A DNA stretch of 54,877 bases from Candidatus Gottesmanbacteria bacterium (lineage in GTDB: Bacteria > Patescibacteriota > Microgenomatia > 2-02-FULL-39-11), in NCBI GenBank assembly GCA_016195685.1, contig JACPZE010000029.1:1-54877 (forward strand), read 5' to 3'. Both the position numbers and the translations under genes were made by a program. The notes below the pieces were generated by a model, which saw only the letters and a list, made by a program, of their open reading frames with translations, was not told the origin of the DNA and made no database searches. This document shows positions 25,417 through 42,347 of the stretch, one piece after another (position 1 is the first letter of the stretch; every line of letters begins with the position of its first letter).

Positions 25417-25445
25417 TTGCGCAAAAGAAGTTTGTTTTGTATAAT
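25417..25445 (+). promoter_or_regulatory. Promoter of tuf-rpsJ
   Basis: TTGCGC, a 17-base spacer and a perfect TATAAT. The predicted leader of about 85 bases contains a TCCGCC/GGCGGA palindrome followed by an AAAAAAGGAG ribosome-binding site. Confidence 0.65.
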
Positions 25446-25496
25446 TTGCGATGCCCCAAAAATATTGGGATTATTTTATTTATTATAAATATTAGG

Positions 25497-25515
25497 ATCC
25501 GCCTAAGCGGCGGAT
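25497..25515 (+). repeat. TCCGCC palindrome upstream of tuf
   Basis: ATCCGCC and GGCGGAT form a seven-base-pair stem around a five-base loop. The tuf Shine-Dalgarno site AAGGAG follows about ten bases later. Related palindromes precede infA, RNase Y and HU. Confidence 0.7.
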
Positions 25516-25536
25516 ATAAGAAAAAAGGAGCTCAAA

Positions 25537-26751: not shown

Positions 26752-27060
26752 ATGCCAAAGGGAAGAATACGTGTACGTTTAAAAGCATATGACGGCAGAA
26801 TCATTGATGATTCATGCCAAAAAATATTGGATACGGCCGTGCGGACCGGAGCAAAAGTCGTGGGTCCGATACCTCTGCCTACCGATAGACAGCATTTTAG
26901 CGTAAACAGGTCTCCATTTACCGATAAAGACAGTCGGGAAGATTTTTGGATGAGAGTTCATAAGAGACTGATAGATATTCTTGAACCTACAGATAAGACA
27001 ATCGATTCACTTATGCATCTGGAACTTCCTGCCGGTGTGGATATAGAGATAAAGATGTAA
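26752..27060 (+). CDS. rpsJ: Small ribosomal subunit protein S10
   Basis: A 102-residue protein of full length, with [19 protein letters not shown] (residues 38-56) and the [19 protein letters not shown] block. S10 is in the 30S head and also takes part in antitermination complexes. In many bacteria rpsJ is the first gene of the S10 operon; here it is joined to tuf and separated from rplC by a new promoter and a terminator-like hairpin. Confidence 0.98.
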
Positions 27061-27071
27061 GTTGGGAAAAA

Positions 27072-27100
27072 TTGAAATCCGGTCTTATTCATTGTATAAT
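27072..27100 (+). promoter_or_regulatory. Promoter of the rplC-headed ribosomal operon
   Basis: TTGAAA (27072-27077), a 17-base spacer and TATAAT (27095-27100). Transcription should start near 27107, giving a leader of about 95 bases before rplC. Confidence 0.75.
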
Positions 27101-27106
27101 TTATAT

Positions 27107-27201
27107 ACAAATCATGGAGGTAAGAAGACTGTAAATTTTGTTTATTAACGGATTTTGGGAGAAAGATCAAAGCCCCTATCCGGGGCTATTTTTTTATCTA
27201 G
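27107..27201 (+). promoter_or_regulatory. Candidate attenuator leader of the rplC operon
   Basis: The leader carries two mutually exclusive folds. CGGAT (27149-27153) and GGG (27157-27159) can pair with CCC and ATCCG (27178-27182) as an antiterminator. Alternatively AGCCCC/GGGGCT (27171-27187) forms a terminator with a U-run. A six-codon reading frame, MEVRRL, sits at 27114-27134, close to the predicted transcript start. What triggers the switch is unknown; a ribosomal protein or translation of the short frame are the obvious options. Confidence 0.5.
27171..27195 (+). terminator. Intrinsic terminator / attenuator before rplC
   Basis: AGCCCC, loop TATCC, GGGGCT, then A and seven T. It lies about 65 bases after the predicted transcript start and six bases before the rplC ATG. 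It may also end transcripts arriving from tuf-rpsJ. Confidence 0.75.
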
Positions 27202-27861
27202 ATGATTACATCAATTTTAGGTACAAAAATCATTCAATCTCAGGCATTTACAACTGAGGGGAAAAGGATTCCAGTTACGAAAGTATTAGCTGGACCATGT
27301 TTAGTGGTTAACATAAAGACTAAAATAAATGATGGTTATGATGCCGTCCAGATTGGTCTTGGCCAAAGACGAATTATTACCGTCACTAAGCCACAATTAG
27401 GTAATCTCAAAAAAGCGGGGTTGGAAAAAAATCCACCCCGTTTTTTAAAGGAAATAAAAATCGAGAATGCAACAATGGACAATGAAACAATGGAAAAATT
27501 AAAACCAGGGACGGTTATTAATGTTAATGACGTATTAAAACCCGGTGACACAATTCAAGTTACGGGGATATCCAAGGGTAAAGGATTTCAAGGTGTTGTG
27601 AAGAGACATCATTTCCGAGGCGGACCCAGAACTCATGGACAATCGGATCGGGAACGTGCGCCGGGTTCCATAGGTTCCACTACTACCCCAGGGCGAGTTT
27701 ACAAAGGAAAAAGAATGGCTGGGAGGATGGGTAATGATCGTGTAACACTAAAAAATCTAAAAGTAGTATCAATAGATGCAGAGAAAAATATCTTGACAAT
27801 TTCAGGTTTAGTGCCGGGTGGTAGGAATGCTCTTTTGATTATAAAGAAGACGAGTTCTTAA
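27202..27861 (+). CDS. rplC: Large ribosomal subunit protein L3
   Basis: A 219-residue protein of typical L3 length, with GKGFQGVVKRHHFRGGPRTHG (about 127-147, including the methylatable-Gln region) and GRVYKGKRMAGRMG. L3 binds near the peptidyl transferase centre and helps start 50S assembly. No Shine-Dalgarno is visible: the ATG follows directly after the terminator's T-run and TATCTAG. Its expression therefore depends on read-through of that hairpin. Confidence 0.97.
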   Translation: MITSILGTKIIQSQAFTTEGKRIPVTKVLAGPCLVVNIKTKINDGYDAVQIGLGQRRIITVTKPQLGNLKKAGLEKNPPRFLKEIKIENATMDNETMEKLKPGTVINVNDVLKPGDTIQVTGISKGKGFQGVVKRHHFRGGPRTHGQSDRERAPGSIGSTTTPGRVYKGKRMAGRMGNDRVTLKNLKVVSIDAEKNILTISGLVPGGRNALLIIKKTSS

Positions 27862-27870
27862 ATTTAAATA

Positions 27871-27925
27871 TGTTTACACTAAGCCCTTCGAAAACTCAGG
27901 GTAAACGCTGAAAGGAGCGAATGTG
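27871..27925 (+). repeat. SD-bearing palindromic repeat before rplD
   Basis: GTTTACACTAAGCCCTTCG faces CTCAGGGTAAAC, and GAAAGGAGCGAATGTG follows. The end of the element supplies the Shine-Dalgarno AAAGGAG and the GTG start of rplD. Shorter forms of the same cassette precede rplV, rplF and rplM. Confidence 0.75.
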
Positions 27926-28750
27926 CCGAACAAAAAAACAATTAAAACAGAAAAAACTCAAGTAAGGCCTAAAACTGATCTCAAAACTGAAGTCTATAAT
28001 CTTTCCGGAGAAATTGTAGGTAAGTTGTCTCTTCCAGGAGAAATTTTTGCAGTGAAAGGCAGTAACCATCTTCTTGCTCAAGCTGTCAGAGTTTATCAAG
28101 CCAATAAAAGGTTAGGTACCCATGACAGTAAAACTAGATCAGAAGTGGTAGGTTCTACCCGTAAAATATACCGACAAAAAGGTACCGGTCGCGCAAGGCA
28201 TGGTAGTATCACTGCGCCTATATTTGTCGGGGGTGGAGTTGCACATGGTCCTCATCCCAGAGATTATTCCTTGACCTTACCCCAAAAAATGAAGAAAGCC
28301 GCACTTTTTGCAGTGTTATCTGATAAATTGCACAACGGATCGCTTAAAGTTGTCAGAGGTTTTGAAAAAATCGCATTGAAAACTAAAATAATGAATGAAA
28401 CTTTAAATAATTTAAAGTTTAATGAGGAAACAAAGAAAAAAGAAAATATTCTTCTGATCACGTCAGAAAATCTAAAAAACATAATTCTCTCTGGCAGGAA
28501 TATAGATAACTTAACTATTGAAAACGTAAAATTATTAAATACTTTGAAAGTCATTTCTCATAGGAATTTACTACTTATGGAAGAGGCGGTACCTGTATTA
28601 GCGAGTCATTTTCTTTCCCAGAATAAACAAAAACTTCTTTCCGGTATTTCAACCAAAAAAGAAAAAGTAGTAAAAAAATCAGCCTCAACTAAAAACAGAT
28701 CAGCCAAAAAAGAAATCAAGCCAACAAAAAAACTGAAAGCTAAAAAATAA
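27923..28750 (+). CDS. rplD: Large ribosomal subunit protein L4
   Basis: A 275-residue protein, longer than the usual 200-210. The core has the extended-loop block KQKGTGRARHGS (near 78-89) and GGGVAHGPHPRDYS. The extra length is a Lys/Ser/Ala-rich basic tail of about 45 residues (from SGISTKKEKVV). L4 lines the nascent-peptide tunnel. In some bacteria L4 represses its own operon, relevant to the leader before rplC. The GTG start is provided by the preceding repeat. Confidence 0.96.
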   Translation: MPNKKTIKTEKTQVRPKTDLKTEVYNLSGEIVGKLSLPGEIFAVKGSNHLLAQAVRVYQANKRLGTHDSKTRSEVVGSTRKIYRQKGTGRARHGSITAPIFVGGGVAHGPHPRDYSLTLPQKMKKAALFAVLSDKLHNGSLKVVRGFEKIALKTKIMNETLNNLKFNEETKKKENILLITSENLKNIILSGRNIDNLTIENVKLLNTLKVISHRNLLLMEEAVPVLASHFLSQNKQKLLSGISTKKEKVVKKSASTKNRSAKKEIKPTKKLKAKK

Positions 28751-28752
28751 AT

Positions 28753-29052
28753 ATGATTATCGCAAACATTATTAGAAAACCTATCATTACAGAAAGATCT
28801 TTGATTGATGCTAGACTTGGAGTTTTTACATTTGAAGTGGATAAAAACGCCAATAAACACCAGATCAAAGAAAAAATAGAAAACCTTTTTAAAGTGCACG
28901 TAAAAAAAATCACCAGCGCAAATTTCAAAGGTAAAAAAAGATTAGTCGGTAAAAAAAGAACCCCTGTATATCAACCTGACAGGAAAAAAGTTTGGGTGAG
29001 GTTAGCAAAAGACGAGAAAATCGATTTATTTGAAGTAGGAGAGAAAAAATGA
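28753..29052 (+). CDS. rplW: Large ribosomal subunit protein L23
   Basis: A 99-residue protein with IRKPIITERSL at the N-terminus and the conserved FEVDKNANKHQIKEKIE block. L23 sits at the tunnel exit, where trigger factor and SRP dock. Its stop overlaps the rplB start (ATGA), so the two are translationally coupled. Confidence 0.96.
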   Translation: MIIANIIRKPIITERSLIDARLGVFTFEVDKNANKHQIKEKIENLFKVHVKKITSANFKGKKRLVGKKRTPVYQPDRKKVWVRLAKDEKIDLFEVGEKK

Positions 29053-29816
29053 ATACATCAACTTATTTCCACCCGGAAAAAACGTTGATGGCAATACTAC
29101 CGAAGAATTCAGGTAGGAATAATATTGGTCATGTAACAAGTAGGCATCAAGGCGGTAGAGAAAAACGTTACTATAGAGCTATTGATTTCAAAAGAAATAA
29201 ATATGATATTGTTGGTCGTGTAATTACATTTGAATATGATCCGAACAGAAATGTTGATATCTCGCTTATACATTATGCTGATGGAGAAAAAAGATATATT
29301 TTAAGACCAGTAGGACTTAATATTGGTGACAGTGTTTCTTCTGGAGAAAATGTTGAAGTGAAAGTGGGAAATAGTTTACCGCTTAGCCAGGTTCCGTTGG
29401 GCACGCCAATCCATAATCTGGAGTTATCCAAGGGTCGAGGAGCTCAAATAGTGCGTGGGGCAGGTACGATGGCTGTAGTGTTGTCGAAAGAAGGTAAATT
29501 CGCCCAAGTAAAATTGCCATCAGGAGAAGTCAGGAAAATTGATGTAGGTTGTCATGCTACTATCGGTCAGATCTCTAATCTAGATTGGAAGAATAAAAAT
29601 TTGGGTAAAGCCGGTAGATCAAGACATATGGGGATTAGGCCAAAAGTCCGAGGAACAGCCCAGAACCCGCGTTCTCATCCTCACGGTGGAGGAGAAGGTA
29701 GAAGCGGTGAAGGATTAAAACAAGCAAAAACTCCTTGGGGTAAACCGGCAAGAGGTTTAAAGACACGCAAGAAGAATAAATATAGTAATCGTTATATAGT
29801 ACAAAGGAGAAAATAA
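29049..29816 (+). CDS. rplB: Large ribosomal subunit protein L2
   Basis: A 255-residue protein; L2 is usually about 273. The N-terminus is about 19 residues short: the protein begins just before PEKTL...SGRNNIG. The rest is intact, including [31 protein letters not shown] and the [13 protein letters not shown] loop near the peptidyl transferase centre (the His of this loop is the classic conserved residue). The start overlaps the rplW stop. Confidence 0.97.
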
Positions 29817-29818
29817 AA

Positions 29819-30103
29819 ATGTCTAGATCTAGTAAAAAAGGACCATATATAGATAAAAGATTACTGAAAAAAGTTATAATCCAAAAAAATTCCGGTCAAA
29901 ATACGCCGATAAAAACATGGTCAAGAGCTTGCCAGATTCCGCCAGATTTTGTCGGTCACAAATTTGCAGTTTACAACGGTAAGAATTTTATCGAGGTATT
30001 TGTAAGCGAAGGTATGGTAGGACATAGACTTGGAGAATTCTCTCAAACAAGAACATTCCGAGGTCATGGTCAAGTGACTAAGAGAATTTTGGAAAAGACA
30101 TAA
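29819..30103 (+). CDS. rpsS: Small ribosomal subunit protein S19
   Basis: A 94-residue protein of normal length: [12 protein letters not shown] at the N-terminus, then [24 protein letters not shown], and a conserved [18 protein letters not shown] end. S19 binds the 16S rRNA head with S13. It starts two bases after rplB. Confidence 0.98.
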
Positions 30104-30107
30104 TATT

Positions 30108-30142
30108 ATGTTTACACTGAACGAATTAAAGGAGTGAACGTG
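30108..30142 (+). repeat. SD-bearing repeat before rplV
   Basis: ATGTTTACACTGAACGA, then ATTAAAGGAGTGAACGTG. AAAGGAG lies five bases before the GTG at 30140, exactly as in the rplD and rplF copies. Confidence 0.75.
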
Positions 30143-30520
30143 GAAATTATTGCACAAATAAAATATTTGCACATCTCGCCTAAAAAAATGAAAGCTTTAG
30201 CGAGAATTGTCGTGGGTTTAAATCCTGCTGATGCAGTAGAAAAGTTGCTTTTGGGTAGCGGTAAGGGTACAAGATTACTGTTACAAGCTATAAAATCTGC
30301 ACAAGCTGACGCCCAAAATAATCTGAAACTTGATGTAGCAACCTTAACAATCAAATCAGTCTCTATTTTGAAAGGGCCAGCGATGAAGAGGTTTCAACCG
30401 GTTTCCAGAGGTATGGCCCATTCGATAAAAAAAAGGATGTCACATATCACAGTAGTGTTAACTCAAAAAGAAGCTAAGGTAGTAAAAAAATTAGAAGAAC
30501 CTAAAAAGGAGAACATTTAA
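30140..30520 (+). CDS. rplV: Large ribosomal subunit protein L22
   Basis: 126 residues from the GTG at 30140 (MEIIAQIKYLHISPKKMKAL). A GTG at 30134 is too close to the ribosome-binding site. The core has LLGSGKGTRLLLQAIKSAQADAQNN and the beta-hairpin region GPAMKRFQPVSRGMAHSIKKR, which reaches into the exit tunnel. It ends with a short Lys/Glu-rich tail. It lies two bases before rpsC. Confidence 0.96.
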   Translation: MEIIAQIKYLHISPKKMKALARIVVGLNPADAVEKLLLGSGKGTRLLLQAIKSAQADAQNNLKLDVATLTIKSVSILKGPAMKRFQPVSRGMAHSIKKRMSHITVVLTQKEAKVVKKLEEPKKENI

Positions 30521-30522
30521 TT

Positions 30523-31185
30523 ATGGGTAAGAAAATACATCCAAAAGGTTTTAGGCTCGGTCCATTATATACTTGGGATTCCCGCTGGTTTGCGGGTGGT
30601 CAACAATACAATCAATTTGTGATTGAAGATGCCAGGATTAGGCGATTACTTCTTCAGAAATTACAGCCTGCGGGAGTAGCAAAAGTTGAGATTGAGCGTT
30701 CGATAAATAAAATTAATATTACTTTACATGTGGTGAGACCTGGTATGGTTATCGGACGTGGGGGTCAGGGTATGGAGGAAATCAAAAAGTTCACTCAACA
30801 AGTTATCTTAAAACATAGAAAAACCTTTAAACAATTGGGTAAACAAGCTGCTTTTAAGTTAGATGTGAAAGTAGAACCGGTGAAAGATCCATATCTGAAT
30901 TCATACTTTTTGGCCAATCAAATTGCGGAGCAAATAGCAAAAAGACTTCCTCATAAAAGAGTAGTCCATTTTGCTCTTGAAAAAGTGATGACAGCTGGAG
31001 CAAAAGGCGTAAAAATTATTCTTTCCGGAAGGATAAATGGAGCTGAAATTTCACGTAGGGAAACTTACAAAATTGGGACAATACCACTATCAACTATCCG
31101 TGAAGATGTTGATTTTACGGCTGTGCCATCATTGACTAAATCAGGATATGTGGGTGTAAAAGTATGGATATGTCGTAAGAGTTAG
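30523..31185 (+). CDS. rpsC: Small ribosomal subunit protein S3
   Basis: A 220-residue protein of usual length. It starts MGKKIHPKGFRLG, has the KH loop GMVIGRGGQGMEEIKK (near 77-92), and has the C-terminal domain with AKGVKIILSGRINGAEISRRE. S3 is at the mRNA entry channel and helps unwind mRNA. After its stop comes an 85-base gap with an inverted repeat. Confidence 0.98.
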   Translation: MGKKIHPKGFRLGPLYTWDSRWFAGGQQYNQFVIEDARIRRLLLQKLQPAGVAKVEIERSINKINITLHVVRPGMVIGRGGQGMEEIKKFTQQVILKHRKTFKQLGKQAAFKLDVKVEPVKDPYLNSYFLANQIAEQIAKRLPHKRVVHFALEKVMTAGAKGVKIILSGRINGAEISRRETYKIGTIPLSTIREDVDFTAVPSLTKSGYVGVKVWICRKS

Positions 31186-31186
31186 T

Positions 31187-31266
31187 TTGTTAATTAGTTA
31201 CTTGGTTACTTAGTAGATATTAATAATTTTTCTAAGTAACAAATAACAAAGTAACTAAGTAACTTT
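31187..31266 (+). repeat. TTAGTTA-type inverted repeat between rpsC and rplP
   Basis: TTAGTTACTTGGTTACTTAG on the left faces CTAAGTAAC and AAAGTAACTAAGTAAC on the right. The arms can form an AT-rich hairpin around GATATTAATAATTTTT. It fills the gap before rplP. Confidence 0.7.
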
Positions 31267-31270
31267 AATT

Positions 31271-31675
31271 ATGTTAGTACCAAAAAGAGCAAAATACAGA
31301 AAACAATTTAGAGGCACCATGGGTGGAGTTGCCAGTCGCGGAACGCAGGTCAATTTCGGAGAATATGGGCTGAAGGCTTTTGAGTCAGGTTGGGTTTCTT
31401 CCCGTCAGATAGAATCTGCGAGAAAAGTGATGACTCGTTTTACGGCCAAAGGAGGTCGTGTTTGGATTCGAATATTTCCTGATAAACCGGTATCAGATAA
31501 ACCTCCGGAAGTCAGAATGGGTGGAGGAAAAGGGGATGTAGTAGATTATGTAGCAGTGATAAAACCCGGCAGAATTCTTTTTGAAATGGGAGGTTTAGAA
31601 GAATCATTGGCCCGTGAAGCCTTGGAGTCGGCTGCCAGCAAATTACCTATTCAGGCTAAATTTGTAAAAAGATAA
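31271..31675 (+). CDS. rplP: Large ribosomal subunit protein L16
   Basis: A 134-residue protein of normal length. It has the conserved start [15 protein letters not shown], the [23 protein letters not shown] block and the [24 protein letters not shown] loop region. L16 contacts tRNA at the A-site elbow. It begins after the repeat with no clear Shine-Dalgarno site. Confidence 0.98.
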
Positions 31676-31706
31676 ATATATTTATAACGGTTAGTTAAAA
31701 AATAAT

Positions 31707-31913
31707 ATGAAAAAGAGTCAAATTAAAGAATTAAATGCGAAAACAGAAGCAGAATTAAACAAAATGCTTTCTAGCCAAAAAGAAGACTTGGCTAAAATAA
31801 TGATTGAGCTGCAGTCTAAAAAGTTGAAAAATGTTGCTTTAGTGACCAACAAGAAAAAAATGATTGCAGTAATTTCAACAAAACTTACTGAAAAGGAGTT
31901 AGCAAAAGTATGA
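31707..31913 (+). CDS. rpmC: Large ribosomal subunit protein L29
   Basis: A 68-residue helical hairpin with the expected ELNAKTEAELNKML and the IMIELQSKKLKNVALVTNKKKMIA segment. L29 pairs with L23 at the tunnel exit. The stop overlaps the rpsQ start (ATGA). Confidence 0.93.
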   Translation: MKKSQIKELNAKTEAELNKMLSSQKEDLAKIMIELQSKKLKNVALVTNKKKMIAVISTKLTEKELAKV

Positions 31914-32137
31914 AAAATATAATTGGAAAAATAGTCTCAACCAAGATGATGAAAACTATAGTAGTAGAAGTGGCAAGACAAAGAGTCCACCCTCTTTACA
32001 AGAAAATCATGAGAAGAACGGCACGGATTAAAGTACATAACGAGGATGAGACATTAAAAGTTGGCGATATGGTTAAGATTACCTCAACGAGACCATTATC
32101 AAAGACTAAACATTTTAAAGTGACAGGAAAAATATGA
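31910..32137 (+). CDS. rpsQ: Small ribosomal subunit protein S17
   Basis: A 75-residue OB-fold protein with [37 protein letters not shown] and [15 protein letters not shown]. It binds 16S helices 7 and 11. Its start overlaps rpmC and its stop overlaps rplN. Confidence 0.96.
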
Positions 32138-32508
32138 TTCAACTGCGTTCTATTTTAGACGTTGCAGATAATACCGGAGCACATAGACTATCAGTGATCC
32201 AGGTAATGGGTCACGGAAACCGTAAAATTGCTTATATAGGAGACATTATAAATTGCGTTGTCAAAAAAGCAGATGCGGAGGGAATGGTAAAAACAAGTGA
32301 AAAGGTAAAGGCAGTACTTGTGCGAACCAGAAAAGAAAAAAGAAGAACAGACGGGTCTTATATAAGATTTGATGATAATGCAGCTGTAATTATAGATAAC
32401 CAAAAAGATAAAAATCCAAAAGGGACAAGAATTTTCGGGCCAATTGCCCGTGAGCTTAAAGATCTGGGTTTTGCCAAAATTGTATCTATGGCGCAGGAGG
32501 TATATTGA
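32134..32508 (+). CDS. rplN: Large ribosomal subunit protein L14
   Basis: A 124-residue protein: [38 protein letters not shown], and an [25 protein letters not shown] end. It lies at the subunit interface. It overlaps rpsQ by four bases and ends in TGA, one base before the ATG of rplX. Confidence 0.98.
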
Positions 32509-32509
32509 T

Positions 32510-32815
32510 ATGAAACTATTAAAAGGTGACGAAGTTATTATTACGACAGGAAAAGATAAAGGTAAAAAAGGCAAAATAGAAAAGATTTTACATAAGCAGG
32601 GTAAAATTGTCCTGCCGGGATTAAATATATACAAGAGGCATCTGAAAAAAAGAGATGAGAAAAACCCGGGAGGAATAGTAGAGTTTAGTAGACCAGTTCC
32701 GGTTGGGAATGTCGCTATTATATGTCCTAAATGCGCAAAACCAACAAGGATAGGTTACAAATTAACAGGAGATAAAAAAGTACGCATTTGCCGAAAATGC
32801 AAAGCGACGCTATAA
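32510..32815 (+). CDS. rplX: Large ribosomal subunit protein L24
   Basis: 101 residues from the ATG at 32510 (MKLLKGDEVIITTGKDKGKKG), behind GCAGGAGG inside the end of rplN. It carries the KOW motif and a CPKC...CRKC four-cysteine zinc-binding knuckle in the C-terminal half. L24 starts 50S assembly. Upstream in-frame codons inside rplN are not used, because the family begins at MKLLKGDEV. Confidence 0.96.
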   Translation: MKLLKGDEVIITTGKDKGKKGKIEKILHKQGKIVLPGLNIYKRHLKKRDEKNPGGIVEFSRPVPVGNVAIICPKCAKPTRIGYKLTGDKKVRICRKCKATL

Positions 32816-32819
32816 TCCT

Positions 32820-33389
32820 ATGTCACAACTATTTCAACAATACCAAACAGAGATAAAGAAAAAATTAGCAGAAGAATTAAACATCAAAAATGTCATGGCT
32901 ATTCCGAAACTTACGAAGGTTGTATTAAACTGTAGTTTAGGTGAAGCGCTGGAGAATAAAAAAGTAATCGAAGAAGTGACGAGTGAGTTTACCCAGATAG
33001 CCGGACAAAAACCAGTAATTACTCATGCCAAGCATGATATTTCTGCCTTCAAGCTAAGAAGAGGTGACGCAATTGGGATAAAAGTGACACTAAGAGGACA
33101 AAGGATGTATGATTTTGTTGAAAAGTTAGTGAAAATTGTACTTCCGAGAATTCGCGATTTCCGAGGAGTACCCAGTTCTGGTTTTGCCGGTTTCGGAGAT
33201 TACAGTTTGGGATTATCTGAGCAGATTGTATTTCCAGAAATAGAGTACAGCAAAGTAAGCAAGGTTAGAGGTCTACAAATAACTTTTGTGACGACAGGGA
33301 AAAATAAAGAGCAAACGAGTAAATTATTAGTGGCATTAGGGATGCCCTTCACTAAAGCTCAGGGTAAACCGTCTGTTATTAAAAATTAA
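32820..33389 (+). CDS. rplE: Large ribosomal subunit protein L5
   Basis: A 189-residue protein with the conserved IPKLTKVVLNCSLGEA, FKLRRGDAIGIKVTLRG and DFRGVPSSGFAGFGDYSLGLSEQIVFPE blocks. L5 holds 5S rRNA in the central protuberance. The family usually ends soon after GMPF; here a further TKAQGKPSVIKN tail is encoded by sequence closely resembling the repeat found before rplD, so a palindrome seems to have extended the reading frame. Confidence 0.96.
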   Translation: MSQLFQQYQTEIKKKLAEELNIKNVMAIPKLTKVVLNCSLGEALENKKVIEEVTSEFTQIAGQKPVITHAKHDISAFKLRRGDAIGIKVTLRGQRMYDFVEKLVKIVLPRIRDFRGVPSSGFAGFGDYSLGLSEQIVFPEIEYSKVSKVRGLQITFVTTGKNKEQTSKLLVALGMPFTKAQGKPSVIKN

Positions 33390-33414
33390 TATTTGTCCTG
33401 AGCGAGTGAAAGGA
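33345..33414 (+). repeat. Palindrome joining the rplE 3' end and the rpsN ribosome-binding site
   Basis: The left arm CCTTCACT-AAA-GCTCAGG lies in the last codons of rplE. The right arm CCTGAGC-G-AGTGAAAGG lies after the stop and contains the rpsN Shine-Dalgarno GAAAGGA. Seven plus about eight base pairs can form a stem over the rplE stop codon. Confidence 0.75.
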
Positions 33415-33422
33415 ATAAAAGT

Positions 33423-33608
33423 ATGGCAAAAGTATCTGACATAATTAAATTCAGGAAAAAACAAAAATTTAAAGTTCGAGCAAGAAATCGCTGTCAACTC
33501 TGTGGTAGAGCTAGAGGTTACATGAGAAAATTTGCACTGTGTAGACTTTGTTTTAGAGAAATGGCACATAGAGGAGAATTGCCAGGAGTTGTAAAAGCTT
33601 CTTGGTAA
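33423..33608 (+). CDS. rpsN: Small ribosomal subunit protein S14 (zinc-binding type)
   Basis: A 61-residue protein of the short, type-Z class. Zinc ligands are CQLCGR and CRLC (about residues 21-43), followed by [19 protein letters not shown]14 is in the 30S head. Its ribosome-binding site is part of the palindrome at the rplE end, which may affect its translation. Confidence 0.97.
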
Positions 33609-33643
33609 ATAAGAAACTTATATTATTAATTAATAAATAAAAT

Positions 33644-34039
33644 ATGCTAACAGATCCAATATCAGACTTATTGATCCAGATAAAAAATGGGTATATGGCC
33701 CGGAAAAAAAATGTTGTTGTAACACACAGTAATATAAAAAATGAGATTGCGCACCTTTTATCCAAAGAAGGATATGTCGGAAAAGTTGAAGTAAAAAATG
33801 TTGGAAAGGTGAAAAAAAATATCTCAATAGATCTTGTTTACATAGGTAAAGAACCGAGATTAACCGATGTGGTCAGAGTAAGTAAAATTGCAAGAAGAAT
33901 CTATGCAAAGAAAGGCACAATACCCAGAGTTTTAAGCGGCTTAGGTATGACAATTCTTTCCACATCAAGCGGTCTTATGACAGGTAAAGAAGCAAGGAAA
34001 AAGGGACTTGGTGGAGAGATAGTCTGTAAAGTTTGGTAA
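33644..34039 (+). CDS. rpsH: Small ribosomal subunit protein S8
   Basis: A 131-residue protein: MLTDPISDLLIQIKNGYMARK and the C-terminal GLGMTILSTSSGLMTGKEARKKGLGGEIVCKVW. S8 binds helix 21 of 16S rRNA; in E. coli it represses the spc operon. It is followed by an SD-bearing repeat before rplF. Confidence 0.98.
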   Translation: MLTDPISDLLIQIKNGYMARKKNVVVTHSNIKNEIAHLLSKEGYVGKVEVKNVGKVKKNISIDLVYIGKEPRLTDVVRVSKIARRIYAKKGTIPRVLSGLGMTILSTSSGLMTGKEARKKGLGGEIVCKVW

Positions 34040-34043
34040 AAAT

Positions 34044-34078
34044 ATGTTTACACTGAGCGACAGAAAGGAGCGAATGTG
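34044..34078 (+). repeat. SD-bearing repeat before rplF
   Basis: ATGTTTACACTGAGCGACAG, then AAAGGAGCGAATGTG. The last three bases are the rplF start codon. It is the cleanest copy of the cassette. Confidence 0.8.
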
Positions 34079-34630
34079 ACACGAATTGGAAGAAAACCGA
34101 TATCATTTGAAAACGATGTAAAAATTTCCCAAAATATGGGGATAATTTACGTGGAGGGACCTGTTGGAAAAATGGAACTTCCTGTACCATCCGAGATGGA
34201 AGTGAAAATCTCAGGAAATACTATAGAAATTGCAGAAAAAAACGGCGTTACCGCCAGAAACATTCAGGGTTTATTTCGCAGTTTATTACAAAATGCCGTA
34301 ACAGGAGTAAAGACTCAATGGAATAAAACTTTGGAATTAGTAGGAGTAGGATACAGAGCACAAACAAGCGGAACAGAATTAGAATTGAATTTAGGGTTTT
34401 CACATCCTATCAAAATGAAAGCACCAATGGGAATCACTTTTAAGGTTGTTGAAAATAAGATTATAGTCAGCGGGGCGGATAAATACATGGTAGGAGAAGT
34501 ATCTGCCATAATTCGGAAGTTAAAGCCGCCTGAACCTTATAAAGGTAAGGGTATTCGTTATGATAAAGAGTTTATTAGAAAGAAACTTGGTAAAGCTGCC
34601 AAAGCAGTAGGAGCTACCGGTGCTAAATAA
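34076..34630 (+). CDS. rplF: Large ribosomal subunit protein L6
   Basis: A 184-residue protein made of two related domains. It starts with MTRIGRKPI. The second domain has ELVGVGYRAQ, LNLGFSHPIKM, ISGADK-like VSGADKYMVGEVSAIIRKLKPPEPYKGKGIRY. L6 lies near the factor-binding site. The start codon is GTG, supplied by the repeat. rplR follows after two bases. Confidence 0.97.
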   Translation: MTRIGRKPISFENDVKISQNMGIIYVEGPVGKMELPVPSEMEVKISGNTIEIAEKNGVTARNIQGLFRSLLQNAVTGVKTQWNKTLELVGVGYRAQTSGTELELNLGFSHPIKMKAPMGITFKVVENKIIVSGADKYMVGEVSAIIRKLKPPEPYKGKGIRYDKEFIRKKLGKAAKAVGATGAK

Positions 34631-34632
34631 AT

Positions 34633-34992
34633 ATGAAAAACTCAAAAGCAAAAGGAAGAATTAAAAGAAGTATAAGGATCAGGGCAAAAATCGCCGGGTC
34701 AAAAGACAGACCCAGACTTTGCGTTTTTAGGTCAAGCCGCTATATATACGCTCAGATAATAGATGATGTAAGCGGTAAAACTCTAGTAGCTGCAAGTGAA
34801 AAAGAACTCAACATCAAAAAAGGCGAGAAAATTAAAAAGATTGAAAAGGCAAAATTAGTCGGTCAACTGCTGGTTAAAAAAGCCGTCAAAGCGAAAGTTG
34901 CAGCTGTGGTTTTTGACCGTAACGGTTATAAATATCATGGCAGAGTTAAATCTCTTGCAGAAGGTGTAAGGGAAGGAGGCTTAAAATTTTAA
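34633..34992 (+). CDS. rplR: Large ribosomal subunit protein L18
   Basis: A 119-residue protein with RIRAKIAGSKDRPRLCVFRSSRYIYAQIIDD and the terminal VVFDRNGYKYHGRVKSLAEGVREGGLKF. It binds 5S rRNA together with L5. rpsE starts two bases after its stop. Confidence 0.97.
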   Translation: MKNSKAKGRIKRSIRIRAKIAGSKDRPRLCVFRSSRYIYAQIIDDVSGKTLVAASEKELNIKKGEKIKKIEKAKLVGQLLVKKAVKAKVAAVVFDRNGYKYHGRVKSLAEGVREGGLKF

Positions 34993-34994
34993 TT

Positions 34995-35429
34995 ATGAAT
35001 GATGAATTTAATGAAAAAGTAATTCAAGTCAACCGGGTATCGAAAAAAACAACCGGAGGAAATAAGATTGGTTTTTCGGTTCTTATAGTTGTAGGCGACA
35101 AAAAAGGTAGGGTGGGAGTAGGTTTGGGCAAAGCAGCAGATGTTGCTTCTGCCGTGAGGAAAGGCTCTGCTTATGCCAGAAAACATATGATCACGGTTCC
35201 AATGGTAAAAACAACTATTCCGCACGAAATTAGGATAAAAATGGGAGCAGCCAAGATACTCCTGAAGCCAGCTCCGGCAGGTACTGGTATCCGTGCTGGT
35301 GGTGCGGTAAGGGCTGTAGTTGAAGCTGCAGGAATTCGCGATATCGTATCAAAAATATTAGGAACTGACAACAAAGCCTCAAATGTATACGCAACATTTG
35401 CAGCTTTAAGTAAACTCAAAACACTATGA
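34995..35429 (+). CDS. rpsE: Small ribosomal subunit protein S5
   Basis: A 144-residue protein, somewhat shorter than the usual 160-170 because the N- and C-terminal tails are short. Core: FSVLIVVGDKKGRVGVGLGKA, TIPHEIRIKMGAAKILLKPAPAGTGI and NVYATFAALSKL. S5 guards decoding accuracy and mRNA entry. It is followed directly by rplO (4-base overlap); the rpmD (L30) gene found here in most bacteria is absent. Confidence 0.97.
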   Translation: MNDEFNEKVIQVNRVSKKTTGGNKIGFSVLIVVGDKKGRVGVGLGKAADVASAVRKGSAYARKHMITVPMVKTTIPHEIRIKMGAAKILLKPAPAGTGIRAGGAVRAVVEAAGIRDIVSKILGTDNKASNVYATFAALSKLKTL

Positions 35430-35881
35430 TAAATCTAAATAAACTTCCCAAAACCACAACAAGAGGAAAAAAGAGATTAGGTCAAGGACATGGAAGCGGG
35501 CGAGGTAAGACCGCCGGACGAGGTACCAAGGGTCAAAAAGCCAGAGGAAAAATGTCTCTTACCTTTAATGCGTCCGGATTATCGTTGATCAGGCGTCTTC
35601 CTCTTATCCGTGGAAAATACCGCAATAAACAACATAAAAATCGGGCATTAGTAGTAAATGTAAAATACCTTAACTTATTACCTGCAAATTCTACTGTCGA
35701 TATAGCTACTTTGATAGCTCATCATATAGTTGACAAAGGAGAAGTATTACTTTCCGGAGTGAAAATTTTAAGCAACGGAGATTTGAAAATTCCATTGATT
35801 GTAAAATTGCCATGTTCTAAAAAGGCACAGAAAAAAATAGAAGCCGCTGGGGGAAAATGTGTTACAGAAAAAAGTAAATGA
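35426..35881 (+). CDS. rplO: Large ribosomal subunit protein L15
   Basis: A 151-residue protein with the Gly/Arg-rich N-terminus ([26 protein letters not shown]) that threads into 23S rRNA, and the end block [19 protein letters not shown]. Its start overlaps rpsE and its TGA stop overlaps the secY ATG. Confidence 0.97.
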
Positions 35882-37167
35882 ATAAATTTCTAAGTCCGAT
35901 AATCAACGCCTTTAAGACAAAAGAGCTAAGAAGAAAAATTCTCTTTACTGCACTTATATTTTTGATTTTCCGCATTTTTGCTCATATTCCCATACCCGGT
36001 GTCAATCTTTTGAAGCTAAAAAACCTTTTTTCCCAGAGTGAATTTTTGGGACTATTGGATATTTTTTCCGGCGGAACACTGGTAAATTTTTCTGTTATGG
36101 CGACAGGACTTAATCCATACATTAACGCATCTATTATTTTGCAACTTTTGACAATGGTATTCCCCAAATTGGAGGAACTTTCCAAGGAAGGAGAATTCGG
36201 TCGCGAGAAAATAAACCAATATACCAGACTTTTGGCAGTACCTTTGGCTGCAATTCAGTCATTGGGTATGTATGCATTACTGAAAAGCCAGGGAATTATA
36301 GCGATACAGTCGCCATTAACTCTTCTGTCTATGATACTGACGATGACTACGGGAACGATACTCTTGATGTGGTTAGGTGAGCTAATTTCAGAATTTGGCG
36401 TCGGAAACGGAATTTCACTTTTGATTTTTGCGGGTATAGTGGGAAGACTTCCAGTAGTAGCAACGCAGACCATTTCTATAGTAACCGGGGAACTTTTGGT
36501 AAATGCGATCGTATTTTTAGCCTTGGCTTTTTTGGTGATAGCAGGAATTGTGCTTATCAATGAGGCAGTTCGGCAGGTACCAGTCCATTATGCAAAAAGA
36601 ATAAGGGGAAATAAAATTTATGGTGGTTCGACTACGTATCTTCCACTTAGATTAAACCAGGCAGGAGTTATCCCCATCATATTTGCTGTTTCTATCGTGT
36701 TGCTTCCATCATTGGTTGGGCGGTTTGTATCGCTTATACCGAACAAAGTTTTGGCAAATATCGCCTCCGGAATGGTTTCTATTTTTAACACAAACGGGGT
36801 CTTTTATAATATTATTTACTTTATTTTAGTGATAGGATTCACTTATTTTTACACAGCTATTACTTTTAATCCGCAAAAAATCGCCGGAGAAATACAAAAA
36901 TACGGAGGATTTATTCCAGGTATAAGACCAGGTACCCCAACAGCAAATTATCTAAATTACATCCTTACCCGGATCACTTTGGCGGGAGCAATTTTTTTGG
37001 GAGTAGTCGCAATTCTTCCGGCAATACTGAAACAAGTCACCGGTATTGCATCGCTGACGATCGGTGGAACTAGTATTTTGATCGTTGTTTCTGTAGTTTT
37101 GGAAACCGTAAAAAGCTTCGAAGCACAATTACTTATGAGAAATTACGAAGGATTCCTTAAAAGTTAA
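35878..37167 (+). CDS. secY: Protein translocase subunit SecY
   Basis: A 429-residue, ten-helix membrane channel for Sec-dependent export. Recognisable parts are [13 protein letters not shown] in the first helix/plug region, [30 protein letters not shown], the loop [38 protein letters not shown], and [25 protein letters not shown]. It is translationally coupled to rplO. A repeat separates it from adk. Confidence 0.98.
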
Positions 37168-37235
37168 TTAGTTAATTAGTTAATTAGTTACTTAGAAAAT
37201 ATAAATACTAATTCACCAACTAACAAATTAACTAA
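37168..37235 (+). repeat. TTAGTTA-type inverted repeat between secY and adk
   Basis: TTAATTAGTTAATTAGTTACTTAG faces CTAATTCACCAACTAACAAATTAACTAAG across an A/T loop. It fills most of the 78-base gap and belongs with the repeats at 17400 and 31187. Confidence 0.65.
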
Positions 37236-37245
37236 GAACCTATCT

Positions 37246-37827
37246 ATGCATCTTGTATTTTACGGACCGGAAGGGTCAGGAAAAGGTACACAGGCAAAAC
37301 TTTTATCAGAAAAACTCAAATTGCCTATTTATACAACCGGAGATTTAGTCCGAGAAGCAGCGGCAAATGATAAGACTGATGTTGGAAATCTTTGCAGGAA
37401 GGTTTTAGAAGAGGGTAAATATTTGCCAGATGTTGTTGTAAGTCAACTTATAGCAAACAAGGTAACAGGAAGTTCAGCAGTCAACGGTTTTATTCTTGAT
37501 GGATTTCCCAGAACAAAAGGTCAGGCAGAATTTTTAGATAAGACCGTAGAAAAATCAGGTTTTAAAATAGACAAATTTATATACCTAAATCTTTCAGATG
37601 AAGAATCAGTAAAAAGGCTTTCCAAAAGGAAAAGAGTATTATTTGGGGGTAGTAATATTCTTCACGATGATCCAAAAAGGGTAAGACAAAGATTGGCAGT
37701 TTATCACAAAAATGAAAAAGATGTTATAGATTTTTATACGAAAAAAAATTTGATATTAGAGGTAAACGCTGGACAAACAGTGGAAAAGGTATTTAGGGAC
37801 ATTGTTTTAGGATTAAAACTTGCATAA
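37246..37827 (+). CDS. adk: Adenylate kinase (short-lid form)
   Basis: A 193-residue enzyme converting ATP and AMP to two ADP. P-loop GPEGSGKGTQ (near 7-16), AMP-site TTGDLVR (near 30-36), and GFILDGFPRTKGQ (near 84-96). The lid is short (RKRVLFGGSNILHDDPKRVRQRL), without the four-Cys zinc lid of some Gram-positive enzymes. It lies between secY and map, as in many bacterial spc operons. Confidence 0.95.
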   Translation: MHLVFYGPEGSGKGTQAKLLSEKLKLPIYTTGDLVREAAANDKTDVGNLCRKVLEEGKYLPDVVVSQLIANKVTGSSAVNGFILDGFPRTKGQAEFLDKTVEKSGFKIDKFIYLNLSDEESVKRLSKRKRVLFGGSNILHDDPKRVRQRLAVYHKNEKDVIDFYTKKNLILEVNAGQTVEKVFRDIVLGLKLA

Positions 37828-37828
37828 T

Positions 37829-38590
37829 ATGGTAGATCTTAAAACTCCAGAGGAAATTTCGCTAATGCGAAAAGGGGGAGAAATTTTACACAAAATACTG
37901 CTGAAACTATTGGATGATGCTAGGGTTGGAGTACGTCTAAAAGATTTAGATCAGACAGCAGAAAATTTGATCTTCTCGGCAGGAGGAAAACCTTCCTTTC
38001 AAATGGTACCAGGATATAAATGGACAATATGCGCTTGCGTGAATGACGTAGTAGTGCATGGAATACCGGATGAATACATTTTACAGGAGGGGGATCTGCT
38101 TGGTATAGATTGCGGAATATACCTTGATGGTTTTCATACCGATCATGCTTGGTCAAAGATCGTTACGAATGGTAAACAGAGCGATTACAAAGAGAAAACA
38201 AATTTTTTAGACACAGGAGAGAAAGCATTTACAGAGGCAATCAAACAGGCACAACCAGGAAATTATATCTATGATATTTCAAAAGCAATTCAGGATAATA
38301 TTGAAGCGGATGGTTACTCTGTAGTAAGAAGCCTAGTTGGGCATGGCGTCGGCAGAAAACTGCATGAGGATCCAGAAGTACCGGGTTTCACAAAAGGCAA
38401 AAGACAAAGCTCTCTTAAAATTATCCCGGGTATGGTATTAGCTACCGAAGTGATTTATAATTTAGGTTCTGCCGATGTGGTTTATAAAGGAAATGACGGA
38501 TGGACAATTGCCACAAAAGATGGTAAAATATCTGGACTTTTTGAAGCAACCGTGGCGATAACATCCCGCGGAGGTTTTGTTTTGACTTAA
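37829..38590 (+). CDS. map: Methionine aminopeptidase, type I
   Basis: 253 residues from the ATG one base after the adk stop (a TTG inside adk is not needed). It removes the initiator Met. Metal ligands fit the family: Asp in [17 protein letters not shown] (two Asp), His in [12 protein letters not shown], Glu in LATEVIY and Glu in [10 protein letters not shown]. It is followed by 76 bases with two perfect palindromes before infA. Confidence 0.97.
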
Positions 38591-38596
38591 TCCCTC

Positions 38597-38650
38597 TCCG
38601 CCAGCTGGCGGATTCGGAATTAATTCGACTAACGTCCCGCCTGGCGGGAC
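38597..38650 (+). repeat. Two adjacent perfect palindromes upstream of infA
   Basis: TCCGCCAGCTGGCGGA (38597-38612) and GTCCCGCCTGGCGGGAC (38634-38650) are perfect or near-perfect self-complementary elements, separated by an A/T-rich stretch with GGAATTAATTCG. Both are far richer in G+C than the surroundings. They belong to the same type as the palindromes before tuf, RNase Y and HU. Confidence 0.8.
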
Positions 38651-38666
38651 GAGTCTCATTGAAATT

Positions 38667-38885
38667 ATGGCTCATCAGGGAACGACAGAAATTGTTGGAC
38701 ATGTTACAGAGGCTTTACCAAATACTATGTTTCGCGTGAAACTGCCTAATGGTAAGATAATACTTTGCCATTTAGCCGGCAGGATGCGGATACACTACAT
38801 AAGGATTATGCCAGGCGATCAGGTCAGGTTGGAATTAACTCCATATGATGATACAAAAGGTAGGATAGTTTATAGAATGAAGTAA
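38667..38885 (+). CDS. infA: Translation initiation factor IF-1
   Basis: A 72-residue OB-fold protein of the usual length. It has [47 protein letters not shown] and an RIVYRMK end. It binds the ribosomal A site during initiation. It lies in the usual place before rpmJ. Confidence 0.97.
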
Positions 38886-38887
38886 TT

Positions 38888-39001
38888 ATGAAAGTTCATG
38901 CATCAGTAAAACCAAGATGTCAAAAATGTAAAAGCGTTCTTCGTCGTGGGAAAATTTATATAGTTTGTGACAATCCGAAACATAAACAAAGACAAGGATA
39001 A
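38888..39001 (+). CDS. rpmJ: Large ribosomal subunit protein L36
   Basis: A 37-residue protein: [20 protein letters not shown], then a segment ending [10 protein letters not shown]. The three Cys and one His of the zinc ribbon (CQKC, a later Cys, and His) are present. It starts two bases after the infA stop and precedes rpsM, the canonical infA-rpmJ-rpsM order. Confidence 0.97.
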
Positions 39002-39004
39002 AAT

Positions 39005-39424
39005 ATGGCTAGAATTTCAGGAATAGATTTACCAGATCATAAAAGACTAGATATAGCGTTAACCTATATTTATGGAATAGGAAGAAAAAATGCTGTAGTA
39101 ATTCTGAGAGAAGCTTCTGTTCTCGGTTCCAAGAGAATTAAGGAATTGTCTGAAGAAGAAGTAGGAAAGATACAAAAAGTGATTGAAGAAAAATTTAAAA
39201 TCGAGGGAGATTTAAAGACCGAAATTGTAGGAAATATAAAAAGATTAAAAGAAATAGGTAGTTATAGAGGCCTTCGTCATATAAAAGGACTCCCGGTAAA
39301 CGGACAAAGGACTCGTTCAAATGCTAGAACAAAAAGAGGTAAACGAAAGACTGTAGGAGCGCTTAGAAAAGAAGTAAGGGCTCAACTTGATTCGACAAAA
39401 ACAACCGATAAAGCAGCCGCTTAA
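39005..39424 (+). CDS. rpsM: Small ribosomal subunit protein S13
   Basis: A 139-residue protein, slightly longer than usual. It has ARISGIDLPDHKRLDIALTYIYGIGRKNA, SYRGLRHIKGLPVNGQRTRSNARTKRGKRKT and a short extra tail. S13 bridges the subunits and touches tRNA in the P site. rpsK follows seven bases after its stop. Confidence 0.97.
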   Translation: MARISGIDLPDHKRLDIALTYIYGIGRKNAVVILREASVLGSKRIKELSEEEVGKIQKVIEEKFKIEGDLKTEIVGNIKRLKEIGSYRGLRHIKGLPVNGQRTRSNARTKRGKRKTVGALRKEVRAQLDSTKTTDKAAA

Positions 39425-39431
39425 AATTATT

Positions 39432-39803
39432 ATGCGTAATAAACAATCAAAAGTTGTAGAAAGAGGCCGCATCTATATAGCCGCGACATTTAACAATACC
39501 TTAATCACGGTGACCGATGAAAAAGGAAACACATTAGGGTGGGGATCTGCCGGTAACGTAGGGTTTAAAGGTACAAGAAAATCTACACCTTTCGCTGCTA
39601 CCACTGCCGTTGATCAAGTGATGAAAAAAGTCATCGCCGCAACCGGACTTCGAAGTGTAGAAGTTTACATGAAGGGACCAGGTGCCGGTAGAGACGCAGC
39701 ACTAAGAGCTCTAAAAAGTGCCGGACTTTCCGTAACTATGATAGCAGATATTACTCCTATGCCACATAATGGCGTAAGGCCAAAAAAGAAAAGAAGGGTA
39801 TAA
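39432..39803 (+). CDS. rpsK: Small ribosomal subunit protein S11
   Basis: 123 residues from the ATG at 39432 (MRNKQSKVVERGRIYI); an earlier in-frame codon overlaps rpsM and gives no family match. Conserved parts are AATFNNTLITVTDEKGN, STPFAATTA, GPGAGRDAALRAL and DITPMPHNGVRPKKKRRV. S11 is in the 30S platform next to the mRNA exit. Confidence 0.97.
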   Translation: MRNKQSKVVERGRIYIAATFNNTLITVTDEKGNTLGWGSAGNVGFKGTRKSTPFAATTAVDQVMKKVIAATGLRSVEVYMKGPGAGRDAALRALKSAGLSVTMIADITPMPHNGVRPKKKRRV

Positions 39804-39806
39804 AAT

Positions 39807-40427
39807 ATGGCAAGATACACTGGACCCAAAAACAGACTAGCACGAAGAGAAGGAGCTGATTTAGGTTTAAAAACAACTGGTATGTCAGCTCATTCTTCGC
39901 TCCTTCGAAGGATGAAAATTCCTCCGGGACAGCATGGACAAAAAGGGACCAGAAAAATTTCTGACTACGGAAAACAGTTGCGGGAAAAACAAAAAGTTAA
40001 AAGGATTTATGGACTTTTAGAAAAACAATTCAGAAACTATTTTGAAAAGGCGAGTCGGAATCCTGCTAACACAGGAGAAGTATTTCTGACTTTGCTTGAG
40101 AGGAGACTTGATAATGTAGTTTATAGATTGGGTATGGCACCAACTAGAGCTTCGGCGCGACAATTTGTAAGTCATGGACATATCCAAGTAGACGGGAAGA
40201 GAGTAAATATCCCCTCGTTTCAAACAAGTGAAGGCATGGTTGTGTCTCCGAAACAAAAACTTTTAGAGACACCTCTATTGAAAAAATTAATGGAAGATAA
40301 AGACTTACCACTGCCAGATTGGCTCAAAAGACAAGGGCCGGTAGGTAAAATATTGCGTCTCCCAAAAAGAGAAGATATTCTTGACGATATAGCAGAGCAG
40401 CTTATTATTGAGTTTTATTCACGTTAA
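39807..40427 (+). CDS. rpsD: Small ribosomal subunit protein S4
   Basis: A 206-residue protein: [52 protein letters not shown], and the S4 RNA-binding domain with [38 protein letters not shown]. It initiates 30S assembly and, in several bacteria, represses the alpha operon. The zinc-type N-terminal Cys cluster is absent. Confidence 0.98.
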
Positions 40428-40454
40428 TTAATTATTTTAAGGAGGTATAAATTT

Positions 40455-41369
40455 ATGATCGAACCTAATTTTACAGTCAAAGCCGAAACTGACAAGCCAG
40501 ATTATGGCAAATTTATTATAGAACCTTTGGATTTTGGTTATGGTCATACTCTGGGAAATAGTCTAAGAAGAGTTCTGCTTACATCCTTAAAAGGTGTTGC
40601 AGTTACTCAAGTAAAAATTGATGGAGTGAAGCATCAATTTTCTACATTACCTGGTTTGAAAGAAGATATAGTCCAGCTTATTTTAAATATCAAAAAGATC
40701 AGATTTACTCTGGATGGGGATAAGCCAGTGATTATGAGATTAAATGCCAAAGGTCCCAAAAAATTGGTCGCTGGAGATTTGGAAGGTGAAGCAGAGGTAA
40801 TTAATAAAGATATTTACCTTGGAGAATTAACTAACAATAAAGCAAAAATTTCTATGGAGGTTACAGTTGAGGGAGGATACGGATATGTCACGGCAGAAGA
40901 ATTCGAAGGTAAAAAAGAGTTAGGTTCGATCATTGTTGATGCTCTTTTTTCTCCCATATCACGTGTGAATTATAAAGTAGAAGCTACTCGTGTGGGAAGG
41001 ATGACAAATCTGGATAAGCTTATATTGGAAGTGTGGGGAGACGGTAGTATTTCTCCTCTTGATGCGCTTAAAACTACATCGAAAATTTTGGTATCCTATT
41101 TCCTGCAGATTTACGAACCGAAGGCAAAACCTACAGAAGGAGTAGCGCTTACACCTACACTTTCTGAGGAAATTCTCAAAATGACATTGGAAGAGCTAGA
41201 TCTACCTACTAGAATAGTAAACGCTCTACACAACGGAGGAGTAGATACGGTAGGACAATTGCTAGGTACACCCAAAAAAGAGCTCTATAAAATAAAAAAC
41301 TTGGGTGCAAAATCCATCACCACAATTGAAGAAGTTTTAAGAGAAAAGGGTATTGCCTTAACTGTATAA
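40455..41369 (+). CDS. rpoA: RNA polymerase alpha subunit
   Basis: A 304-residue protein. The N-terminal dimerisation domain has EPLDFGYGHTLGNSLRRVLLTSLKG and LLSPISRVNY-like LFSPISRVNYKVEATRVG. The C-terminal domain is present (DLPTRIVNALHNGGVDTVGQLL, LGAKSITTIEEVLRE), so contacts with activators and UP elements are possible. It has a strong ribosome-binding site, AAGGAGGT, about eight bases before the ATG, which stands out from its neighbours. Confidence 0.98.
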   Translation: MIEPNFTVKAETDKPDYGKFIIEPLDFGYGHTLGNSLRRVLLTSLKGVAVTQVKIDGVKHQFSTLPGLKEDIVQLILNIKKIRFTLDGDKPVIMRLNAKGPKKLVAGDLEGEAEVINKDIYLGELTNNKAKISMEVTVEGGYGYVTAEEFEGKKELGSIIVDALFSPISRVNYKVEATRVGRMTNLDKLILEVWGDGSISPLDALKTTSKILVSYFLQIYEPKAKPTEGVALTPTLSEEILKMTLEELDLPTRIVNALHNGGVDTVGQLLGTPKKELYKIKNLGAKSITTIEEVLREKGIALTV

Positions 41370-41375
41370 AATATT

Positions 41376-41846: not shown

Positions 41847-41849
41847 ATT

Positions 41850-41884
41850 ATGTTTACACTGAGGGAGAGAAAGGAATGAATGTG
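41850..41884 (+). repeat. SD-bearing repeat before rplM
   Basis: ATGTTTACACTGAGGGAGAG, then AAAGGAATGAATGTG. Compared with the rplF copy the SD has changed from AAAGGAG to AAAGGAA, but the spacing and the GTG are kept. Confidence 0.7.
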
Positions 41885-42307: not shown

Positions 42308-42347
42308 TAATTGTTAACCAGTCCTCCACTAAAAACCATATTTAAAT

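Follow-up and report, generated by a model that had tools for sequence, protein, structure and literature searches.

The window, a stretch of 54,877 nucleotides belonging to a 1.19-Mb genome, carries the gene order tuf-rpsJ-leader-rplC, with 141 bases separating the end of rpsJ from rplC. Pfam models identified EF-Tu, S10, L3, L4, L23 and L2 near the leader, S12, S7 and EF-G upstream of it, and S19, L22, S3, SecY, Adk, Map, S4, RpoA, L13 and S9 downstream. All genes of the downstream cluster lie on the same strand, and we have assumed that they form one transcript. In what follows, f1 denotes the window's own family, f2 and so on denote other families of relatives, and L-numbers denote individual loci. 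The features are as follows.

26752 to 27060, plus strand: rpsJ (ribosomal protein S10), last gene of the upstream unit (Pfam Ribosomal_S10, 8.4e-33)
27072 to 27100, plus strand: predicted sigma-70-type promoter, TTGAAA (27072 to 27077), 17-nt spacer, TATAAT (27095 to 27100) (sequence)
27114 to 27134, plus strand: putative leader uORF ATG GAG GTA AGA AGA CTG TAA (MEVRRL) (sequence; position and frame conserved class-wide)
27149 to 27159, plus strand: candidate antiterminator 5' arm CGGAU UUU GGG (CGGAUUUUGGG) (pairing in f1; co-variation between families)
27171 to 27187, plus strand: predicted intrinsic terminator hairpin AGCCCC-UAUCC-GGGGCU (sequence; relatives)
27189 to 27195, plus strand: U7 tract of the terminator (sequence)
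27202 to 27861, plus strand: rplC (ribosomal protein L3), the first putatively controlled gene, ATG at 27202 (Pfam Ribosomal_L3, 1.2e-17)
27923 to 42851, plus strand: downstream cluster L4, L23, L2, S19, L22, S3 ... secY, adk, map ... S4, rpoA ... L13, S9 (Pfam, ORF list)

The elements described in the initial annotation, namely the promoter, the short frame, the terminator, the pairable segments and the gap of six bases between the T-run and the rplC ATG, are all present base for base. The promoter matches the consensus at 11 of 12 positions and ranks first among 42 promoter-like sites in 19 kb, the number of such sites, taken as a group, not being above chance. The start codon of MEVRRL lies 13 nt past the -10 box, with a predicted 5' untranslated region (UTR) of about 5 to 7 nt, and the frame includes a recurrent in-phase GGAGG. 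Downstream, CGGAT (27149 to 27153) can pair with ATCCG (27178 to 27182), and GGG (27157 to 27159) with CCC (27174 to 27176), these terminator positions being the putative competing partner of the arm. By its sequence, the stretch between the terminator and rplC offers no room for a promoter. We also observed that rplC has no Shine-Dalgarno sequence and a start nearly abutting the terminator U-tract both in the window (27202) and in L004, L006 and L007. Elsewhere in the window (25440 to 25536), tuf likewise has a TATAAT 5' of it; an ATG no more than about 5 nt past this box opens the frame MPQKYWDYFIYYKY, and an inverted repeat, GATCCGCC..GGCGGAT, stands 5' of the tuf Shine-Dalgarno sequence; this region is possibly another near-leaderless micro-ORF leader.

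We compared the region upstream of rplC in 163 genomes of what is probably the class Microgenomatia, spread over 28 families, counting as strong any terminator of -8 kcal/mol or lower that ended no more than 90 nt from rplC. Such a terminator precedes rplC in 132 of the 163 loci; the corresponding rates are 2.5% for dinucleotide-shuffled sequences and 3.7% for windows taken elsewhere in those records, so that terminators are about 30 times commoner at this site than in shuffles. A pattern search of the window's own genome returned as many control matches as true ones, and a covariance model of the f1 leader was used instead; it gave one strong match per genome, immediately before rplC, with a second, marginal match in one genome. 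On both counts the site is more than a chance occurrence. In f1, S10 is adjacent in 14 of 14 sampled members, and the terminator is kept in 51 of the 58 loci that have no rpsJ within 700 nt upstream, which means that it does not simply close the tuf-rpsJ unit. The initial annotation had placed the leader exactly where rpsJ was split from the operon, a proposal at odds both with the adjacency of rpsJ here and with these 51 loci. An end-of-operon terminator was rejected by the same synteny.

The sequence of the terminator varies by family, reading GCCCC..GGGGC in f1 and f6, CGACCUC..GAGGUCG in f8, GCGAC..GUCGC in f17, and GGCGCC or GGUGCC in f18. In f1, the end of the hairpin is only 7 to 47 nt from the rplC AUG, and transcription from the leader promoter must therefore cross the terminator. 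Since the U-tract of several f1 genomes nearly reaches the rplC start codon and no promoter fits after it, these rplC genes would be expressible only by readthrough. A leader of the same design precedes rplC in Candidatus Roizmanbacteria CP066689.1 (L043), with the micro-ORF MLYFLIEEIMF, the arm CGGAUUGG and the terminator GCCCCAAUCUGGGGC. The 24 loci sampled from other classes of the phylum have different leaders, or none of this design. Two further conserved rplC leaders were seen: one in f3 (L164, L181, L192, L194, L198, L203, L222 and L223), reading UUUCAGUAGAUCGCGCGUC..GAUACGGCGA..GAUACUGAGUGAG..CUCACUC, and one in L249, L260, L261, L264 and L267, from other classes of the phylum, reading CGGGG..AAGUCC..GGAAACUA..UGUCGGAAA, the latter of which looks like a separate structured r-leader.

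The initial annotation had further proposed two competing folds, with covariation in relatives as a check. In the window alone, the upstream segment is no more complementary to the terminator than chance would allow (p about 0.25), and the antiterminator occupancy predicted from the partition function is only 0.09; it is through the relatives that the second fold becomes convincing. Across loci, pairing between the region around the leader stop and the terminator of the same locus averages -12.5 kcal/mol, compared with -8.87 (sd 0.27) for terminators permuted among loci, none of the 5000 permutations being as low, and this holds with one locus drawn per family. A mutually exclusive antiterminator is thus predicted class-wide, whereas in the window by itself it is weak and lacks significance. 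In f8 and near it, where the short arm strings were misaligned by MAFFT and were read by eye, compensatory pairs include CUCGG/CCGAG, CUUGG/CCAAG (L148) and CUCAAGG/CCUUGAG (L199), and the corresponding helix reads, also by eye, CGGAUUGG/CCAAUCUG in f6 and GGCUACAUA/UAUGUGGUC in f17. Judged in this way, the arm-terminator helix appears to have been rebuilt several times.

Within families, arm and terminator are paired in 91% of cells in f1 (11 members), with no covariation because both sides of the pairing are almost invariant. In f17, 88% of cells are paired, column shuffling giving a trend only (36 of 500 shuffles as high), and sliding the partner drops the pairing to 17 to 44%. The proposed check therefore came out negative inside f1 but positive between families, where arm and terminator co-vary. 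As a separate observation, the f8 promoters (L018, L020, L021, L111, L112, L115, L116, L121 and L141) share the near-palindromic GATACTTTGGTATACTT, and the f8 leader has ACCAAAAGTCTCGG, which is partly complementary to it.

The six-codon frame that the initial annotation had placed near the transcript start is strongly supported at the class level by its frame, its stop position and the phase of GGAGG. Among 119 leaders with a clear -10 box, 85% have a start codon 5 to 17 nt past it, compared with 19% and 26% in two control windows. The distance is mostly 8 to 15 nt, which, with predicted transcription starts, implies a 5' UTR of about 0 to 8 nt and hence no space for an upstream Shine-Dalgarno sequence. 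The first in-frame stop falls within -12 to +16 nt of the arm for the ATG frame in 86 of 92 leaders and for each other frame in 28 of 92 (Fisher 2e-25), this interval having been chosen after inspection of the data and the loci being related, not independent; counted by family, the ATG frame is ahead in 13, behind in 2 and level in 2. What is conserved is the position of the stop and the reading phase, not the peptide, as families encode products as unrelated as MEVRRL, MFFSLFGITGE, MTRQSRP and MAKQTEVILAT. The micro-ORFs have a median length of 9 codons (n = 103), and 45 of the 103 contain GGAGG, in the same codon phase in 44 of these 45 and mostly 11 to 20 nt 5' of the stop, chiefly at 11 or 14 nt. 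No amino acid dominates the 103 micro-ORFs, whose peptides differ between families; an amino-acid-sensing leader peptide of the trp, his or leu type is out, as there is no run of codons for a sensed amino acid.

The families differ in detail. The f6 frames have 9 to 17 codons, encode unrelated peptides and mostly stop 4 to 9 nt 5' of the arm, and in most f17 leaders the stop lies within the arm; codon-position variability in f17 (0.48/0.43/0.51) is uninformative. Five f1 micro-ORFs were accepted automatically, those of L002, L004, L005, L009 and L011 were added by eye, and a convincing ATG micro-ORF was absent, again by eye, in 4 of 14 f1 leaders (L006, L008, L010 and L013). In f18 (L138, L144, L145, L150, L167, L191, L218 and L219), about 60 to 130 nt 5' of rplC, the micro-ORF sits inside a hairpin, GUGGUU..AACCAC or GAGGU..ACCUC, the loop of which often bears GUUCGUCA (for example, in L145, L150, L191 and L219).

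The comparative data and the Pfam assignments bear out the architecture of an attenuation switch that had been recognized here, with a promoter, a competing arm and a terminator abutting the gene ahead of a long ribosomal and translation cluster, and the leader in the window is one member of a predicted class-wide system. Computation yields the terminator, the co-variation of arm and terminator between families, and the position and frame of the micro-ORF; that the micro-ORF is actually translated we infer. We hold it very likely that the leader is an attenuator of rplC, and likely that the micro-ORF is translated and part of the switch throughout the class. Our preferred reading, to which we assign a probability of roughly 0.6, is a ribosome-mediated (uORF) transcription attenuator of the rplC (S10/spc/alpha-type) operon.

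In this model, transcription would start about 7 nt past TATAAT, producing a nearly leaderless micro-ORF followed by the antiterminator arm and then by a terminator that touches rplC, the arm being synthesized before the terminator. Were the micro-ORF free of ribosomes, the arm (CGGAU..GGG) would pair with the 5' half and the loop of the terminator, and RNA polymerase would read into rplC; a ribosome at the micro-ORF stop would cover or abut the arm, the terminator would fold, and transcription would end. On balance, then, micro-ORF translation would favor termination. Many active ribosomes would turn r-protein synthesis down and scarce ones would turn it up, with neither amino-acid-specific control codons nor an r-protein ligand. 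The logic would be the classical ribosome-mediated one, free of control codons, and we tentatively take the signal to be the frequency of micro-ORF translation, i.e., ribosome supply, and not another translational cue. In partition function calculations, arm pairing is 0.67 when the leader is free. The value falls to 0.44 if a ribosome occupies the leader stop and stands at 0.66 if it occupies the leader start; occlusion has a large effect in f17, f29, f6, f4 and f35 but little in f8 and f18. The gap from stop to arm in the window is 14 nt, just past the usual leading edge of a ribosome. More speculatively, the main r-protein operon in Microgenomatia might directly gauge active ribosomes, the micro-ORF, perhaps loaded by 70S ribosomes that GGAGG holds at the stop, masking the antiterminator when ribosomes are plentiful. 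That the short frame ends where a ribosome could determine the fate of the terminator suggests that cells may tune their supply of r-proteins to the activity of their ribosomes and need no dedicated regulator for it.

The initial annotation had looked to L4 or other r-proteins as the regulator. Binding of L4, L3 or another operon product to the leader would promote terminator formation, much as at the E. coli S10 operon or in the B. subtilis attenuators for L20 and L10(L12)4. This would place the same class of device on the same operon, r-protein attenuators being the known rule (PMC10931766), and the f18 hairpin with its recurring GUUCGUCA loop could be a protein site. We nevertheless consider it unlikely. 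None of the Rfam 15 covariance models matched at gathering score, a loose threshold giving only unrelated matches at chance level, and no conserved bulky RNA fold was found. Conservation falls on the position of the stop codon and on a helix of family-varying sequence, not on a fixed binding motif, for which the f1, f6 and f17 leaders leave little room, and an r-protein ligand would leave the conservation of frame and phase unexplained. These data point to the ribosome translating the small frame, rather than an r-protein, as the probable sensor. That such a ribosome acts by an opposite or different logic, with stalling or starvation in the micro-ORF opening an anti-antiterminator and turning the operon on as in vmlR, appears quite improbable given that neither a stalling motif nor a set of control codons is shared by different families and that most f17, f6 and f29 leaders have no enclosing hairpin and a stop inside or beside the arm. 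It would nevertheless suit f18, where the hairpin around the micro-ORF (GUGGUU..AACCAC) resembles the uORF-bearing SL-1 of vmlR (PMC9226507), as well as the small effect of stop occlusion in f18 and f8, and the recurrent in-phase GGAGG could cause pausing. The logic of the switch in f18 may thus be different from that in other families.

The position directly 3' of rpsJ and the nonsignificant single-sequence arm test would also fit an ordinary tuf-rpsJ terminator past which some transcription constitutively continues into rplC, in which case the small frame and the arm would be incidental. However, a promoter precedes the terminator and none fits after it, and the retention of the terminator in loci without adjacent rpsJ, the arm co-variation and the frame test all argue against this explanation, which we regard as very improbable. 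It is scarcely credible that the hairpin mainly controls the translation start of an rplC gene devoid of a Shine-Dalgarno sequence: even though the AUG lies a few bases past the U-tract in many f1 leaders, termination fits better, because almost every family retains the U-run directly behind its GC-rich hairpin, even with distances to the AUG that range from 6 to more than 50 nt.

How r-protein synthesis is adjusted to ribosome content is a classic question, to which the known answers are r-proteins acting as repressors. A uORF attenuator before the rplC operon, kept in most sampled families of the class, would be a different answer. If true, it would amount to a general feedback from ribosome supply that dispenses with an r-protein repressor and takes the place of L4-type autoregulation in an entire bacterial class. 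The hosts are tiny, uncultured bacteria with reduced ribosomes and no genetics. Within the open-access literature, our searches turned up neither a uORF attenuator acting on any r-protein operon, rplC included, nor an account of r-leaders in these bacteria.

In trp- and his-type attenuators, a ribosome at the leader stop masks the antiterminator strand and the terminator forms. The rplC leader would be alike in this masking but differs in having no run of control codons, unconserved peptides and an r-protein operon as its target. The E. coli S10 leader, a long, structured RNA, binds L4 and depends on NusA. It is similar in attenuating transcription of the same gene cluster before the early genes; it stands 5' of rpsJ and acts via L4 (PMC10931766), whereas the rplC leader follows rpsJ, is short, contains a uORF and has no known L4 motif. 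The B. subtilis attenuators of rplJL, responding to L10(L12)4, and of the infC operon, responding to L20, also govern r-protein operons by a choice between terminator and antiterminator, but their leaders bind r-proteins (PMC10931766) as ligands on a conserved RNA fold, and the rplC leader has no such fold or Rfam match. In the set of candidate r-leaders published by Eckert and Weinberg 2020 (PMC7247131), we found rplC under a single entry, an archaeal L4 leader (Archaeoglobi), and the premature-terminator survey of Naville and Gautheret 2010 (PMC2965389), which keeps leader peptides for amino-acid-related genes and r-protein leaders separate, leaves rplC unmentioned in its main text; both report computed leaders upstream of r-protein genes, as we do here, and neither describes an rplC uORF element. 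The vmlR leader of Bacillus subtilis (PMC9226507) likewise combines a short uORF near the 5' end with an antiterminator and an intrinsic terminator, and there, too, the position of the ribosome decides and a run of one amino acid is unnecessary. The vmlR leader precedes an antibiotic-resistance gene, is about 219 nt long and has a uORF with a Shine-Dalgarno sequence inside an anti-antiterminator hairpin (PMC9226507); unlike it, the rplC leader is roughly 90 nt long, has a nearly leaderless uORF and would serve an r-protein operon.
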